From an uncultured Pseudomonadota bacterium (GTDB lineage: Bacteria > Pseudomonadota > Gammaproteobacteria > CAJXQU01): 64,000 nt of DNA. Of the stretch, positions 6,409 through 20,342 are shown one piece after another. The translations under genes and the position numbers were made by a program. How positions within the stretch are numbered: position 1 is the first letter of the stretch; every line of letters starts with the position of its first letter. The stretch is taken from NCBI GenBank assembly GCA_913058255.1, contig CAJXQU010000002.1:62001-126000 (forward strand). The letters run 5' to 3'. The notes under the pieces were generated by a model. The model was not told where the DNA came from and ran no database searches. It was given only the letters and a program-made list of their open reading frames with translations.

Positions 6409-8538
6409 CTAAAATCCACCAAGGTTTTCTACCGGAAATTTCAGCGGTTCATTATCATTTATTTTTATTATTGTTTTTTCGATAATATCTACATCGTTAT
6501 CAAAAGATCCATGAGCCAGCTCAATACTGTCACCCTCTAACGATGTCTGTACTTCACTTTTGGATTTATCATACTCAAAGGATTTAACCCTAGATGATCG
6601 GCCTCTGGCAAACTCAGACCATTTTTTAATTTCATTATGCTGGCTCGTATTAAACATTCCATCGTCTTGTTCGGTGTTACTGGTGTCCCAAGCTGCGGCC
6701 ATGCCGAGAATCGGCATTTTATGAATACCTTCAAGCGCTCGACTAACAAGGTAGAGTAAAGACTTTCCATAAGGCCCAACACTATCTGCTTTTTCACGTT
6801 CATCACTCATCATATGGATCGTTAGATCCGTCTTTTTGAGAATCCCTTTGCTACAGGCGTTAACATAATGTCGGTTGGCAAATTCAAGTGTACAAGCGGG
6901 GGCGAGAAGCGTTGCAGATTTTATACTTAATTTCCTTTTGACTAATTCATCAAGCCAGTGTCCAAATAAAATGGAACCAGCTGAATGGCAGATTAAGTGA
7001 GTTTCAAAGCTGTGTTTCTTTTGTAAGTCTTTCAATGCTTTTGACAAAACAACCATTCCACCAGGTCGAACATTACCTTGTTGAGGGAAGCCTCGTACAG
7101 CACGGTCACTGGCGAAAAGAGCATTTTCTTTCATCTCGGTCCAAACACCTTTAACCAGAACTTGTTGCGATATTTTTTCTATTCCACGATCAATAGAATC
7201 ACGTAAACGATCAAAAATTCCTTGGGCTCGACTACTAGCAGGATCAATTCCCGCCTTGTTGAAAGTACTGTGAATATAGTCTTTTAGTTGATTGTTGATC
7301 GACTCCATAAAACCTGTTTTCCAAGTAATGAAAATTGGATAGATTCCATTACTTTTGAAATAAGGCGCCATTACTCGGACGCGATTGATTGAATCTTCTT
7401 CAGAGTTCAAACCACCGTGGGCATAGATCACTACTTTTTTATTATTAGGGCTTTCTTTGAACCAGGCTTCTAGATTTTGATAACAGATGATGCGCGCCGA
7501 AGCATCAGGATCAGCCGCGGTAATCAAAGTGAGTTTTGGTCTACCGTTATTCTCAATAACGAGCGAGTGTTGATAGGCCCGTTCTTCGCTCCATGGTCTG
7601 ACCTGAGGATTTTTATAGTCATATTTTAGCGCTTTGGAGATCTTGCTACTGACGCGCTGGGTGGATTCTGTTGAGATCGATTGTAATGAGTGGTTAGAAA
7701 ATGTTTGTGGTGATGTTTTTCGAACAGGAGCACCCCTAACGGCTACCCAAGCATCACTGCCATTTTCTACCCAGTCTGAGTATGTTAATACAGAAAAACC
7801 ATTGAACCCCCAATTTTCGCCCCATGAATTTTGTACGATAAAACCGTCTGCGTTGTAACCAATGATGGCGAAAGCATGGCCACCGATTGATTGACTATTG
7901 CTACTGATCAAAGACAAGGCTTTATCGTTTTCACGCCACCAACCTTTGTGAATAGAAGCACAGCAGTAAATAGCGCCAACTTCATGAATCGCACTTTGCA
8001 TATCGACGACAGAGTCATTATTAATTCGGTAATAAGCACCGAGTGGGTTGAGTGTTGCCTCAGTGGACCAAGACGGGTCGGGGAGTTTTTTACCAGCAAC
8101 AGAGTATGGCCAAGTCTTATCACGACAAACCCCATGACGATGCCAACCTTTCATGGCACCACGACAGCTTGACCCTTCATAATCTTCACCATCCCATTCA
8201 TCATAAACACGCGCCATGTTATAGAGCATGCGCGTACTTACTTTTTGCTCTATTCCATTACGGGGGCAGAGAATTTCAGAGTCTTTTACGGTGATAGCTT
8301 CACGCCAGTTTAAATAATTGATCACGGCTGCCAGACCAAAACCGGTACAAGCACCTTCTCCGAGCTGATTTAAAATCATCCCATCGTTGGTGTAACAGCT
8401 GAGTAATTTATTGATATGAATATTTAAGGGCCACTGTGGAGGAAGTGAGCGAAGAGGAGGGCGATACTCACGATCTCTTAAGTCAAGCCGATCAGGACGT
8501 GCATCAAATGTTTGATTTCTATGAGTGGTTTTTGGCAT
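6409..8538 (-). CDS. Papain-like (C1) peptidase fused to an alpha/beta serine hydrolase
   Basis: 709 residues with two catalytic domains. Residues 10-275 are a C1 papain-fold peptidase with the full set: oxyanion Q58, nucleophile C64 (in NQLGEGACTGFG), H221 (GGHAFAIIGY) and N237 (VQNSWGENWG). Residues 365-709 look like an alpha/beta hydrolase: a strand followed by YAHGGLNSEED, the nucleophile elbow CHSAGS with S519, and a candidate catalytic His at H676 in AHGSFDND. No signal peptide or membrane segment is visible, so it appears cytoplasmic unless it uses a specialised secretion route. There is no inhibitory propeptide of classical papain length. The neighbours (flaG and an exported hydrolase) give no clear role. 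Substrates are unknown. Confidence 0.82.
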   Translation of the reverse strand: MPKTTHRNQTFDARPDRLDLRDREYRPPLRSLPPQWPLNIHINKLLSCYTNDGMILNQLGEGACTGFGLAAVINYLNWREAITVKDSEILCPRNGIEQKVSTRMLYNMARVYDEWDGEDYEGSSCRGAMKGWHRHGVCRDKTWPYSVAGKKLPDPSWSTEATLNPLGAYYRINNDSVVDMQSAIHEVGAIYCCASIHKGWWRENDKALSLISSNSQSIGGHAFAIIGYNADGFIVQNSWGENWGFNGFSVLTYSDWVENGSDAWVAVRGAPVRKTSPQTFSNHSLQSISTESTQRVSSKISKALKYDYKNPQVRPWSEERAYQHSLVIENNGRPKLTLITAADPDASARIICYQNLEAWFKESPNNKKVVIYAHGGLNSEEDSINRVRVMAPYFKSNGIYPIFITWKTGFMESINNQLKDYIHSTFNKAGIDPASSRAQGIFDRLRDSIDRGIEKISQQVLVKGVWTEMKENALFASDRAVRGFPQQGNVRPGGMVVLSKALKDLQKKHSFETHLICHSAGSILFGHWLDELVKRKLSIKSATLLAPACTLEFANRHYVNACSKGILKKTDLTIHMMSDEREKADSVGPYGKSLLYLVSRALEGIHKMPILGMAAAWDTSNTEQDDGMFNTSQHNEIKKWSEFARGRSSRVKSFEYDKSKSEVQTSLEGDSIELAHGSFDNDVDIIEKTIIKINDNEPLKFPVENLGGF

Positions 8539-8752
8539 TAACTTCTCTCTCAGTGTACCTACAGAGTTTTACTTATAATTTCATTTTTCGTTTGCGTCAA
8601 GTAATAAGATGGGAATGAGTTTCGATCGATATTAATTTTTTTGACTTTGAAAAGCGGTACGACATCTAGAAATTGAGCTAGACTTATTTAAGATCATTAA
8701 AAAAATAATAAAGAGTTTGAAGTTGTTCTCGAGGAGCAATCGATTAAACATT

Positions 8753-9739
8753 ATGATATTCGATAAACAACATTGCTTCTTATTCACTAGTTTGTTTTTA
8801 TTATCATCACCGATAGCGCTTAAAGCTGATCCAGAGCTACAGTCAGTTTGGGAACCACCTGGAGAGTTGATTAAAGTGGGGCAGCATCGTCTACATATTA
8901 ATTGTCAGGGTAATCAAAATAATATGCCTACGGTGATCATTGATTCTGGTCTTGGAGGTTTTTCACTGGAGTGGCAAAATCTACAAACAAGCCTATCAAA
9001 ACGCTATAAAATTTGTAGTTATGATCGAGCCGGTTACGGTTGGAGTGATCCTGGTCCTTTCCCTCGTACAACAAAAAAAATCGTAGCTGAGCTGAAAACT
9101 CTTATGCAGCGATCTGATCTATCACCACCCTACATATTGCTAGGGCATTCTTTTGGTGGCTACAATATGATGTATTTTTCTAAGGCCTATCCTGAAGAGG
9201 TGGTTGGTCTTATCTTGATCGACTCTTCACATCCGGAACAAGCAAACTGGTTTCCCCGCGTGTTTCCAGATCTTCCTCATAGTGGGCGTCAAGCTAGATT
9301 TATATCGACACCAAAGTTACCAGCGAACTACCCGTATGAATATAAAAAGATTGCCTATCATTTAATGCGTGCAAAAAAGGCCCGTAATGCCTTACGTTAT
9401 GAGAGCATGAATTTTGAAATCAGTGGCAAGCAGGTTCTTAGTTTAGGCCAGTTGTCGAATATTCCCTTAGTGGTATTAACCCGTGGAGAACGTGCATGGC
9501 CAAAAACGACGACTGGTGAACAGCTAGAAACCACATGGTTGAGATTACAAAATCAATTAGCAAGAATGTCCAAAAGATCGTCGCATGTCATGGCTGATTT
9601 CAGTGGCCATTTTATACATCTTGATCAACCTTCTTTAGTTGAGCAGGCAATTGAAATAGTCGTCAAGCAATTACCGTGTAAGAAATTAAAAAATATTTAT
9701 GCCGATGTGGAAAGCCGAAAAGGGCTGGGAGAATGCTGA
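8753..9739 (+). CDS. Exported alpha/beta hydrolase
   Basis: About 328 residues: a signal peptide (hydrophobic core LFTSLFLLSSPIAL, likely cut after LKA) followed by an alpha/beta hydrolase fold. Visible are the oxyanion-side DSGLGG, SYDRAGYGWSD, the nucleophile elbow GHSFGG, and a late GHFIHLDQP that supplies the histidine. These features match proline-iminopeptidase and haloalkane-dehalogenase-like hydrolases, but the substrate cannot be read from sequence. It should act in the periplasm. I chose the ATG at 8753 because the signal peptide starts there. A GAGGAG lies 16 bases upstream, a long spacing, and a TTG at 8717 is possible. It is divergent from the protease fusion. Confidence 0.82.
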   Translation: MIFDKQHCFLFTSLFLLSSPIALKADPELQSVWEPPGELIKVGQHRLHINCQGNQNNMPTVIIDSGLGGFSLEWQNLQTSLSKRYKICSYDRAGYGWSDPGPFPRTTKKIVAELKTLMQRSDLSPPYILLGHSFGGYNMMYFSKAYPEEVVGLILIDSSHPEQANWFPRVFPDLPHSGRQARFISTPKLPANYPYEYKKIAYHLMRAKKARNALRYESMNFEISGKQVLSLGQLSNIPLVVLTRGERAWPKTTTGEQLETTWLRLQNQLARMSKRSSHVMADFSGHFIHLDQPSLVEQAIEIVVKQLPCKKLKNIYADVESRKGLGEC

Positions 9740-13948: not shown

Positions 13949-14863
13949 ATGCGGAACATACTAGTTATTAACTATTCGCAGACAGGGCAATTAACTCGAA
14001 TTACAGAATCTATATTAAGTCCTTTAAAATTCGATGATAATTTAACCATTGAAACGATTACTTTAAAACCAGATAAACCCTTTCCATTTCCTTGGTCTTT
14101 CTTTAGTTTTTTTCAGCTTATGCCTGAAGCGGTCTATATGAAGCCCATTCCTCTTGAAGTGCCAGCAGTTAAGCAACATCAATATGATTTAATCGTTCTT
14201 ACCTATCAAGTATGGTTTTTATCTCCCTCTTTACCTACCTCTAGTTTTCTACAATCGGAACAAGCAAAAATCATATTTAATACTGCACCGGTCATGACGG
14301 TCATAGGTTGTCGAGGAATGTGGCTGACGGCTCAAGAAAAAGTTAAGTTTTTGTTAGAAAAATTAAATGCGAAGCTTGTCGATAATGTAGTACTCACGGA
14401 TGATTGTGGATCAGGCTTTAGTTTTTTAGCAACGCCGCTTTGGATGTTCACGGGCAAAAAAAAATCATTGACATGGGTTCCTCAGGCTGGAGTTTCTGAA
14501 GATGATATTTATCAGGCTAGACGTTTTGGTGATGCAATCAAAAAGCGACTAGATCAAGATCCGACCCCCATTACTGAACCTATTTTAACAGGACTTCAAG
14601 CGGTAACAATAAATGAAAAATTAATTCTCAGTGAACAAATCGGACATCGTAGTTTTAAAGTCTGGGGAAAGATTTTGATGTTTTTGGGCGCTTCAGGAAC
14701 TGTTTCTCGAAAAATAGGTATCTGCTTTTATGTGAGTTTTTTGTTCGTACTTATTTTAACGGTTGTACCCTTAACAGCGCTATTCATTAAATTACTGTCC
14801 CCATTGCTTCATAGATATATTACCCATCAAAGAGCGTACTTTGCTCAGCCATCAGGAGAATAG
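13949..14863 (+). CDS. darA: Flavodoxin-like, DarA-type protein with C-terminal membrane segment
   Basis: 304 residues. The N-terminus is a flavodoxin-fold strand and phosphate loop (NILVINYSQTGQLTR), with later core strands YDLIVLTYQVWFL and PVMTVIGCRGMW. Near the C-terminus a hydrophobic stretch (YVSFLFVLILTVVPLTALFI) probably anchors it to the membrane. It is followed after 8 bp by a KAS III-like gene, and this pairing resembles the dialkylresorcinol (DAR/flexirubin) gene pairs in which such a protein is annotated DarA. There it is thought to help convert the condensed product to the aromatic ring; I am not certain of that role. AGGAGAGG precedes the ATG. It could instead be another NAD(P)H-dependent oxidoreductase. 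Confidence 0.62.
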   Translation: MRNILVINYSQTGQLTRITESILSPLKFDDNLTIETITLKPDKPFPFPWSFFSFFQLMPEAVYMKPIPLEVPAVKQHQYDLIVLTYQVWFLSPSLPTSSFLQSEQAKIIFNTAPVMTVIGCRGMWLTAQEKVKFLLEKLNAKLVDNVVLTDDCGSGFSFLATPLWMFTGKKKSLTWVPQAGVSEDDIYQARRFGDAIKKRLDQDPTPITEPILTGLQAVTINEKLILSEQIGHRSFKVWGKILMFLGASGTVSRKIGICFYVSFLFVLILTVVPLTALFIKLLSPLLHRYITHQRAYFAQPSGE

Positions 14864-14871
14864 AAGAAATC

Positions 14872-16026
14872 ATGACAAACTCAGTCTATATCAATAATAT
14901 TTCTGTAGCACTACCTAATAGCAAAGTCTCTAATGAACAAATGGAAGATGTTTTGGGCAAAGTTGGGGGGAAAAGGTCCAGAGCAAAATCTATTGTTCTT
15001 CGTAGCAATGGTATTAAGTCTAGATACTATGCAATTGATCCTGTAACGGGTGAGCAAAATTATACAAATGCATCATTAGCTGCTGAAGCGGTTAGGGGAC
15101 TTTTTGATGATGAAAATAGTATCGAAAATATTGATTGTTTGGTTGCTGGAACGTCTATTCCTGACCAAGTGATGCCAGGACATGGAGTGATGATTCATGG
15201 TGAGTTAAAAAATCCTCCCTGTGAAGTTATTTCTACTTCGGGTGTTTGTGTCTGTGGTGTGACAGCACTTAAATATGCTTTTTTAAATATTAAAGCCGGA
15301 GAGAGTAGCAACAATGTCGCAGTAGCCAGTGAACTGGCATCTGCTGTTTTACGATCAGATAATTTTGAAGCAGAAAGCCAATATAAACTCGATAAACTTG
15401 ATGCTAAACCTGAGATTGCTTTTGAAAAAGATTTTCTACGCTGGATGCTGTCTGATGGAGCGGGCGCTGTTTTAGTTTCAGATACAGCAAATAAAGAGAA
15501 ACTTTCTTTAAAAATAGATTGGATCGATATTTTGTCTTATGCCGACACGATGGAGCCTTGCATGTATACCGGTGCTGAAAAAGAAGAAGGTAAGTTTCAA
15601 GGTTGGTCGCGTTTTTCTGAGAAACAGCGCGCTCAACGATCAGTGATGACTATTAAGCAGGATGTGAAGCTCCTTAACGAGAATATAGTTAAGGTAACTT
15701 TGGAGCAAGCCTTATCTGAAGTGGCTAAAAAGCGAAAGCTTAATGTGGAAGAGATTGATTATTTTTTACCGCATTTTTCTTCAAATTATTTTAAAGAAAA
15801 GGTGCATGCCGGTTTAGAAAAAATAGGTCTCCCAATTCCTTATGAGAAATGGTTTACCAATCTCACTGAGAAAGGTAATACTGGGTCAGCATCTATTTTT
15901 ATCATGCTGGGGGAACTGTTTGATTCAGGAAGGTTAAAAGACGGACAGAAACTGCTTTGTTTCATACCTGAAAGTGGACGTTTTTCAAGTGCATTTATTC
16001 ATTTAACCGCCGTAGAGCCGGCCTAG
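14872..16026 (+). CDS. darB: KAS III-like ketosynthase, DarB-type
   Basis: 384 residues of thiolase fold. H301 (LPHFSSNYF) and N336 (GNTGSAS) complete a KAS III-type triad. The cysteine lies in STSGVCVCGVTALKYA, either C126 or C128. The usual C-x-G spacing is not met exactly by either, so the nucleophile needs checking. The N-terminal VGGKRSRAKSIVLRSNGIKSRYYAID fits DarB-type enzymes, which join two beta-ketoacyl chains into a cyclohexanedione that becomes a dialkylresorcinol. It follows the flavodoxin-like gene in the same operon. No dedicated acyl carrier protein gene is visible nearby. Housekeeping FabH is shorter (about 320 residues). Confidence 0.7.
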   Translation: MTNSVYINNISVALPNSKVSNEQMEDVLGKVGGKRSRAKSIVLRSNGIKSRYYAIDPVTGEQNYTNASLAAEAVRGLFDDENSIENIDCLVAGTSIPDQVMPGHGVMIHGELKNPPCEVISTSGVCVCGVTALKYAFLNIKAGESSNNVAVASELASAVLRSDNFEAESQYKLDKLDAKPEIAFEKDFLRWMLSDGAGAVLVSDTANKEKLSLKIDWIDILSYADTMEPCMYTGAEKEEGKFQGWSRFSEKQRAQRSVMTIKQDVKLLNENIVKVTLEQALSEVAKKRKLNVEEIDYFLPHFSSNYFKEKVHAGLEKIGLPIPYEKWFTNLTEKGNTGSASIFIMLGELFDSGRLKDGQKLLCFIPESGRFSSAFIHLTAVEPA

Positions 16027-18569: not shown

Positions 18570-20342
18570 ATGACGAACCCAATACAAAATAGTATGGAAG
18601 CTAGTATTCATAACTTCGCCACCTTCGATGATAGTGAGTTGTTTTATCGAGCTTGGTTGCCTAATGAACAACGCACTAATCAGCTGAGTGAAAAAGCATT
18701 GATCTTATTTCATGGAGGCCACGAACATTCTGGCCGCTTTCAAGATCTTGTCGAGCGTTTAGCCCTCGATAATGTTTCTATTTTTGCATGGGACGCACGT
18801 GGTCACGGACGTTCACCAGGTGTGCGTGGTTATGCTGATCACTATATGGATGTTGTGCGTGACGTTGATGCTTTTATCAAACACATCGAAAGACAGTACA
18901 ACATACCTTCTTCACAAATGGTTGTTATGGGCCATAGTGTAGGCAGTGTAACGTTGGCCACATGGTTACATGATTATGCGCCTAACGTACTTGGTGCCGT
19001 GCTCGGTTCACCGGCTTTTGACGTCAAACTTTATGTTCCCTTGGCATATCCATCATTACGATTATGGCAAAAGGTCAAAGCGAATGGTTTCGTTAGCAGT
19101 TATGTAAAGCCGAAGATGCTAACGCATGATCAAGAAGAGGCAGAGTCGCGTGAAAATGATGAGTTAATTTCGCCAGATATTGCGATCAGAGTACTAATCA
19201 GTCTTTATGACACTGCGCGGCGTGTGATCGCAGATGCGCATACGATCAAAACGCCTGTCTTATTACTTTCCGCGGGTAAAGACTGGGTCGTGAAACAGAC
19301 AGCACAACAAAAATTCATTCAACAGCTCGGCAGCACAAATAAAGAGATGTCACTTTACCCCGGCTTTTTTCACGAGATTTACCATGAAGCAGAGCGTGCA
19401 AGACCCATCGCTAGAGCAAAAGCCTTTATCGAAGATTGTTTTGCTGCAGAGCCTGATCAAACAAAGGGAGACTTGATAGAGCAGGGTGAAAATATGGCTA
19501 TCTATGAATCCCTACAACAACCCTTGTCCAGCTCTTGCTGGAAAAAATACTATTATGCTGTGACAGCATTCGTATTAAAGAATATCGGAGGGAAACTTAG
19601 CGAAGGTATGAAAATAGGTTGGAAGCATGGTTTTGATTCTGGCGTAATGCTTAATTATGTGTACGAAAATAAAGCCAAGGGTAGGACAGCTATCGGTCAG
19701 TTTATTGATCGAATCTATTTAGACTCACCAGGGTGGGCTGGGATCCGCCAACGCGGTGAACACTTGCAGCAGAGTTTGATCGTGTCAATTAAAGAAAAGA
19801 AACGAGATCAAAATAAAGTGACAGTTATGGATGTTGCTGCAGGACCGGGGCGTTACCTGTTAAATGTTTTGGAAGATCTTAACGATCCATCAGTGAGTGC
19901 CATATGTCGAGATCTTGATGTGGTTGGTTTGCAAGAAGGGCAGACATTGGCCAAACAAAAGGGCCTTAATGAATCGGTCATTTATTTACAAGGCGATGCT
20001 TTTGATCCTGAGTCATTACGAGACACTATCGATCAGCCTGACATCATTATTGTCTCTGGTCTGTATGAACTTTTCTCGGATAATAAAATGCTGACTAAAT
20101 CGTTACAGGGAATTTATGATCTCCTGCCTGAAAACGGTACCTTGATTTATACTAATCAACCGTGGCATCCACAACTAGAATTGATCGCTAGAACATTAAT
20201 TAATCGTGAGCAAAAACCTTGGGTCATGCGCCCAAGATCACAGAAAGAAATGAATCAACTCGTTGAAAATGTTGGGTTTACACCAGAAAAAATGTTGATT
20301 GATAACGAGGGTATTTTCACGGTAAGTATTGCCAGAAAATAA
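18570..20342 (+). CDS. ynbC: Fused alpha/beta hydrolase - SAM-dependent methyltransferase YnbC
   Basis: 590 residues, two enzymes. Residues 15-300 form a monoacylglycerol-lipase-like hydrolase: FHGGHEHSGRF, DARGHGRS, nucleophile S123 in GHSVGS, and the histidine in GFFHEIYHE. Residues 390-590 form a class I methyltransferase with the SAM-binding motif VMDVAAGPGRYLL and a late IIIVSGLYELF. The length and order match E. coli YnbC (about 585 residues). The substrates are unknown; context suggests lipid head-group or acyl-chain remodelling. No clear ribosome site precedes the ATG at 18570. The next gene follows after 21 bp. Confidence 0.9.
   Translation: MTNPIQNSMEASIHNFATFDDSELFYRAWLPNEQRTNQLSEKALILFHGGHEHSGRFQDLVERLALDNVSIFAWDARGHGRSPGVRGYADHYMDVVRDVDAFIKHIERQYNIPSSQMVVMGHSVGSVTLATWLHDYAPNVLGAVLGSPAFDVKLYVPLAYPSLRLWQKVKANGFVSSYVKPKMLTHDQEEAESRENDELISPDIAIRVLISLYDTARRVIADAHTIKTPVLLLSAGKDWVVKQTAQQKFIQQLGSTNKEMSLYPGFFHEIYHEAERARPIARAKAFIEDCFAAEPDQTKGDLIEQGENMAIYESLQQPLSSSCWKKYYYAVTAFVLKNIGGKLSEGMKIGWKHGFDSGVMLNYVYENKAKGRTAIGQFIDRIYLDSPGWAGIRQRGEHLQQSLIVSIKEKKRDQNKVTVMDVAAGPGRYLLNVLEDLNDPSVSAICRDLDVVGLQEGQTLAKQKGLNESVIYLQGDAFDPESLRDTIDQPDIIIVSGLYELFSDNKMLTKSLQGIYDLLPENGTLIYTNQPWHPQLELIARTLINREQKPWVMRPRSQKEMNQLVENVGFTPEKMLIDNEGIFTVSIARK

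Follow-up and report, generated by a model that had tools for sequence, protein, structure and literature searches.

A leaderless papain-family protease joined to an alpha/beta hydrolase, with a possible role in cell lysis

The protein described here has a chain of 709 amino acid residues, in which a xylellain-type cysteine protease (C1A) is followed by a predicted serine hydrolase of the lipase/esterase type with a probable helical lid. Its gene lies in the window, a stretch of 64,000 nucleotides of DNA from an uncultured Pseudomonadota bacterium, and its features are collected in Table 1. The best explanation we can offer, a serious possibility somewhat short of probable, is that it is a leaderless two-domain enzyme from a modular family that dismantles cells, with a role in cell lysis. 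The strongest functional clue is the repeated joining of the hydrolase to peptidoglycan hydrolases in related proteins. The protein would be cytoplasmic. It has no signal peptide, as the initial annotation had stated, the best N-terminal hydrophobicity window being -0.16. An N-terminal hydrophobic stretch in one relative (L044) was rejected as a start-site artefact; it matches small open reading frames located upstream of related genes.

Table 1. Features of the fusion gene and its protein (window coordinates)
Feature	Position	Strand	Basis
Whole gene: leaderless 709-residue C1A protease / alpha-beta hydrolase fusion	6409..8538	-	ORF, Pfam, conservation, selection
Papain-family (C1A, xylellain-like) domain, about residues 12-270, including N-terminal D-A-R-P-D-x-x-D-x-R-D segment	7729..8505	-	PF00112, 3ois
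Q58, oxyanion-hole Gln of protease	8365..8367	-	Q in 83/83 ungapped homologues
C64, protease nucleophile	8347..8349	-	C in 83/83 ungapped homologues
H221, protease general base	7876..7878	-	85/85 homologues
N237, in NSWG	7828..7830	-	85/85 homologues
Linker between domains, about residues 271-309	7612..7728	-	pLDDT 42-53 at residues 271-300, low confidence at start
C-terminal alpha/beta hydrolase region, residues 310-709	6412..7611	-	own model; lipases, esterases, thioesterases at Z 10-12
H374 of HGG oxyanion motif (374-376)	7417..7419	-	H in 84/85, GG in 85/85
Helical insertion, residues 410-476, probable lid/cap	7111..7311	-	helices 410-429, 442-459, 462-476 between core strands (model)
S519, hydrolase nucleophile in CHSAGS after strand 512-518	6982..6984	-	85/85, but preselected by scan pattern
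D585, best catalytic-acid candidate	6784..6786	-	85/85; past strand 572-577
H676, hydrolase catalytic His in HGSFDN	6511..6513	-	84/84 ungapped

The open reading frame, which begins with ATG, is a real gene, as had been stated earlier. Its GC content of 42 % against 40 % for the window indicates a native composition. In the comparison with a genome of the same genus (G001), the synonymous differences are saturated (pS 0.81-0.84) and the nonsynonymous ones are few (pN 0.13-0.14), with similar values for the N-terminal and C-terminal halves. Judged by these substitutions, both halves are under strong purifying selection. The saturated pS with low pN, together with the catalytic residues kept in 85 two-domain homologues, indicates that the reading frame did not arise by chance. 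Promoter patterns around the gene were below the shuffled background and terminator patterns were near it.

The locus is syntenic in the genus: a flaG-like gene, the fusion gene and a secreted alpha/beta hydrolase gene are followed by FKBP-like and two-component genes, and the first and third of these are the neighbours of the fusion gene in the window. The second alpha/beta hydrolase gene (window 8717-9739, plus strand) is divergent from the adjoining fusion gene, has a signal-peptide-like start and keeps its place in the genus. In G001 the fusion gene is carried on two contigs, and a gene for an astacin-type protease is found between it and flaG. In a further genome of the genus (G002) all that remains of the fusion gene at the corresponding chromosomal place are fragments, so that it has been lost in one of three genomes. 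The syntenic position and these fragments make the gene look ancestral in the genus and lost once. The remnants (G002:C60:11550-12050; L004, L129) show internal deletions and frame breaks, and the astacin-type gene of this genome (G002:C2:76026-77004) is also broken. Two other regions of the window were noted by eye. At 18570-20342 (plus strand) a lysophospholipase-like hydrolase forms the N-terminal part of a fusion with a class I methyltransferase-like half; genes resembling CDP-alcohol and phosphatidate transferases precede it and a PAP2/dual-specificity phosphatase-like gene follows. A pair resembling DarA/DarB (dialkylresorcinol condensing enzyme and ketosynthase III) is located at 13949-16026 (plus strand).

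The N-terminal half is assigned to the papain family (C1A) by its modelled fold and its Gln/Cys/His/Asn set, in agreement with the initial annotation, and proteolytic activity is predicted for it. Peptidase_C1 (PF00112) matches this half with an E-value of 4e-8 and 33.9 bits, the Pfam cut-off being 20.7. Xylellain (PDB code 3ois) matches it both in sequence (E 4e-9) and in fold (Z 23.3, rmsd 3.1, 234 residues).

The C-terminal half is, according to its model, an alpha/beta hydrolase, as had also been proposed from the sequence. Residues 310-709 modelled alone gave a pLDDT of 88 and a pTM of 0.89. All the fold matches listed for this half are alpha/beta hydrolases, with Z from 10 to 12.2 over 160-226 residues. 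The best are dienelactone hydrolase (Z 12.2) and lysosomal phospholipase A2 (11.5); a Mycobacterium thioesterase (11.3), an archaeal lipase (11.3), hornet phospholipase A1 (11.1) and the PahZ1 depolymerase are also found. The scores do not discriminate between lipases, thioesterases and dienelactone hydrolases, and a lipase or phospholipase acting on envelope lipid would be one candidate. A Foldseek comparison of the hydrolase with the PDB gave nothing below 1e-3, a library of viral structures gave weak matches only, and a family profile search found no sequence relative in the PDB. In Pfam, DUF900 (PF05990) reaches 18.9 bits for the whole protein and 21.0 bits for the domain alone, the gathering cut-off being 20.5, and it matches 16 of 53 members of the hydrolase family even at E 0.01. 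The family thus appears to be covered by Pfam marginally, and through DUF900 only.

The elements of the hydrolase occur in the canonical order for this fold: the HGG motif, Ser519, an acid region at residues 579-585, and His676 near the C-terminus. The initial annotation placed Gln58, Cys64, His221, Asn237, Ser519 and His676 correctly and missed the oxyanion motif beginning with His374 and the acid candidates Asp579, Glu582 and Asp585. Glu582 is invariant and Asp579 is present in 78 of 85 sequences. Conservation was counted over 85 homologues having both domains, with Ser519 preselected by the pattern used in the genome scan; the elbow serine is also kept in relatives obtained by tblastn or by the profile survey. 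Asp680 is invariant or nearly so among the 85. Intact catalytic sets are present in 83-85 of these homologues; a routine loss of one set, which would have refuted the initial annotation, was not seen. The exception is a trypsin-C1 protein from Roseivivax, whose hydrolase region can no longer be recognised. The helical insertion is probably a lid or cap, to judge from its position in the model.

Attention had been drawn earlier to the elbow sequence CHSAGS, which starts with Cys. This feature is real, and the significance attached to it was rejected: the Cys at position 517 is unique to the window sequence among those compared, Gly being present in 82 of 85 homologues, Ala in two, and Gly again (GHSAG) in the congener G001. 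Given the Gly in these sequences, the substitution is best regarded as a lineage-specific change of no known functional weight.

The initial annotation considered the fusion unusual. Instead, the architecture is widespread, and a genome scan confirmed 460 relatives across phyla. Eighty of these were kept, and nearly all of the kept loci encode the fusion. Whole-genome profile surveys found the hydrolase in 15 of 398 Pseudomonadota genomes and in 16 of 294 Planctomycetota genomes, and tblastn located the fusion on plasmids as well, rhizobial and others. A phage origin was rejected, with no relative in 50,697 phage records and one in viral contigs. The annotated copies are labelled only 'C1 family peptidase' at NCBI, leaving the larger half unannotated; hundreds of genomes carry the fusion under this C1-only name. 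The literature searched contained no description of the fusion. A distant subfamily of stand-alone hydrolases of about 500 residues (L157, L163, L109, L110) has a long insertion and a conserved Ser elbow; two of its members, L109 and L110, gave no Pfam match.

It is important to consider the modules to which the hydrolase is joined in its relatives. Ten relatives carry an N-terminal domain of the GH19 lysozyme/chitinase type, several of them with PG_binding_1 in addition. One relative has an N-terminal N-acetylmuramidase (PF11860, E 7e-53), and another an N-terminal GH24-like fragment, a weak match below the Pfam cut-off. Three proteins (Kovacikia L014, L107, L108) lack a C1 domain and have the order Amidase_2, hydrolase, caspase. 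The tree separates L102 from the main clade of GH19 fusions, which thus occupy two positions, and it puts the muramidase and GH24-like fusions at two others. These four positions, plus the Amidase_2 architecture, indicate that the hydrolase has been coupled to putative wall-cutting modules in at least five lineages or architectures, one of them through the weak GH24 match. Such repeated joining suggests that the family is a tool for taking bacterial cells apart. The window protein itself has no wall-hydrolase module and none is found among its gene neighbours; a search of its genome for GH19 gave no match, with the search controls also silent.

In the proposed mechanism the hydrolase would be the constant module of the family. 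The interchangeable ones would be proteases (C1, caspase) and peptidoglycan hydrolases (GH19, N-acetylmuramidase, Amidase_2), with CHAP or lysozyme-like enzymes supplied by partner genes. Upon lysis or attack the lipid and protein of the envelope would be broken down alongside hydrolysis of the wall. The target could be the cell itself, in regulated death or defence, or a neighbour reached after release by lysis. Only the protease and hydrolase modules are present in the organism of the window. A broader proposal, to which we give rather less credence, is that of an undescribed, cross-phylum leaderless family that attacks wall, protein and lipid together, from one polypeptide or one gene cluster. 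The hydrolase would then have been joined several times to wall hydrolases and to cathepsin-like or caspase proteases, and with the trypsin-like, astacin and haem-peroxidase genes nearby the ensemble might be a bacterial counterpart of the granule set of phagocytes. If the lytic role is correct, the breakdown of wall, protein and lipid is coupled in this enzyme family. The family would offer a route to how bacteria dismantle cells with such enzymes in the absence of signal peptides or injection, and to asking whether suicide, defence or attack is served. The family is also a candidate source of leaderless enzymes with predicted envelope-degrading activity.

The neighbouring genes point in a similar direction. 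A PG_binding-CHAP gene is located directly downstream in six Burkholderiales-type loci, all of one clade, and lysozyme-like genes occur in two Rhizobium loci (L009, L012). In R. leguminosarum (L009) a GDSL-caspase, a trypsin and a YLATT membrane protein adjoin the gene. The GDSL-like lipase fused to the caspase (L009:2087-3994, minus strand) lies beside the YLATT protein on a Rhizobium plasmid, and its GDSL-like N-terminal part is common to the trypsin protein of L124. At L124 a Trypsin_2 protein and an animal-type haem peroxidase are encoded upstream. Haem peroxidase genes near the fusion were placed at L124:4816-6714 (by Pfam) and L012:9584-11272 (by eye). The Sulfurovum locus L027, placed with the clade of the window on the tree, has a caspase gene 13 bases upstream. 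Astacin-type proteases are found near the gene in G001, L025, L071, L072 and L014, adjacent in G001 and L025, and a Tle1-like phospholipase adjoins L125. The fusion gene of a Planctomycetales MAG is directly preceded by a second, single-domain C1 peptidase gene (L019:3091-3903, plus strand). Most copies with the two domains stand by themselves among unrelated genes: a Pfam search of 72 direct neighbours gave mainly unrelated metabolic genes, and none of the partner genes sought was present beside the Planctomycetota copies. No immunity gene, holin or regulator recurs among the neighbours. A conserved operon was rejected after clustering the five nearest reading frames on each side, which showed neighbours common to close relatives only; no operon is obvious around the fusion gene of the window either, as had been said earlier.

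The initial annotation suggested a toxin, a defence enzyme or a secreted effector, and each of these is unproved for the window protein. It is unlikely, in our estimate, that the protein serves as the effector in a cytoplasmic system of conflict or programmed death, in which the protease, perhaps after cleavage by a caspase or trypsin, activates or aids the hydrolase and the infected cell is killed; such an action has been proposed for pairs of a caspase and an alpha/beta hydrolase in bacterial conflict systems. This proposal would account for the caspase adjacent in L027 and fused in L014, L107 and L108, and for the GDSL-caspase, trypsin and YLATT genes of the Rhizobium locus L009. It also has parallels in the literature: the caspase domains of VMAP systems are reported always to be neighboured by an alpha/beta hydrolase (Kaur et al. 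2020, PMC7159879), and the CARD-NLR-like LypABC illustrates that bacterial peptidase systems can control lysis of the host cell (PMC13236601). However, PADLOC matched the protein to no family, so a known anti-phage defence system was rejected; it gave only two matches among the 72 direct neighbours of relatives, one of them a caspase. There is no recurring NTPase or sensor partner, and no caspase domain was found in the genome of the window. Injection as an antibacterial effector by a type VI or other contractile system, in the manner of TseP and the Tle lipases, is considerably more doubtful. The leaderless combination of wall hydrolase and lipase-like chemistry does resemble type VI effectors such as TseP, a chimeric amidase-lysozyme (PMC11893102), and a Tle1-like phospholipase lies beside L125. 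In the 42 genomes searched (that of the window and 41 carriers), VipB is present in 17 and a sheath in 19. However, no match to VipB or Phage_sheath_1 was found in the genome of the window (96 % complete), which argues against an injected effector there. Both are likewise absent from several carriers, including G001 and two genomes with the Amidase_2-hydrolase-caspase protein (G131, G043). Delivery by such systems was therefore rejected as a general rule, injection not being a general requirement. Of the direct neighbours with an annotation or a Pfam match, none was recognised as VgrG, PAAR or an immunity gene.

An ordinary intracellular enzyme of catabolism or processing, acting on proteins, esters or a storage compound and unrelated to lysis, has about the same low likelihood as the conflict-system effector. 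It agrees with the solely metabolic neighbours of most two-domain copies, with the sporadic distribution and the loss in one congener, and with the dienelactone hydrolase, thioesterase and PahZ1 depolymerase among the fold matches. However, it leaves unexplained the repeated, independent fusions to wall hydrolases of several kinds and the caspase, trypsin and haem peroxidase partners. Less likely than any of these would be a self-processing zymogen, in which the C1 half frees or activates the hydrolase, or the hydrolase regulates the protease, so that only one half acts on substrates other than the protein itself. The low-confidence linker between two separate domains and the alignment of the N-terminal segment with that of xylellain are consistent with it. 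So is the occurrence of the modules apart, the hydrolase without C1 in L109, L110 and L014 and the C1 domain with an unrecognisable hydrolase in Roseivivax. The invariance of both catalytic sets and the similar selection on the two halves argue against it. A lytic enzyme of a modular family is the explanation we continue to prefer.

It remains to compare the protein with known enzymes and systems. Xylellain from Xylella fastidiosa is the best PDB relative of residues 7-270 in both sequence and fold; it shares the N-terminal PDxxDxRD segment and the same Cys/His/Asn set. However, it is a single-domain enzyme lacking the hydrolase half, and the identity is about 25 %. The C-terminal half has the GxSxG-type elbow, the HGG oxyanion motif, the order Ser, acid, His and the fold in common with DUF900 and generic lipase-esterase hydrolases, whereas the whole protein scores under the DUF900 cut-off and its hydrolase family has no sequence relative in the PDB. 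The VMAP pairs, LypABC and TseP are to be taken as analogies, none of them being the same system as the fusion. The VMAP/MoxR-vWA and GAP1-N1 systems (PMC7159879) may be likened to it in the coupling of hydrolase and caspase, fused in L014, L107 and L108 and located nearby in L027 and L009; no MoxR, vWA, VMAP or GAP1 partner was seen. In comparison with TseP (PMC11893102) and the Tle1-like lipases, the fusion differs in having a proteinase, with no immunity gene seen and no type VI or sheath match in the genome of the window, while it resembles them in being leaderless and in the several envelope-degrading activities predicted for the family (GH19, muramidase and amidase relatives). The window protein itself is a variant of known enzyme families, and the architectural convergence within the wider family is of more interest.
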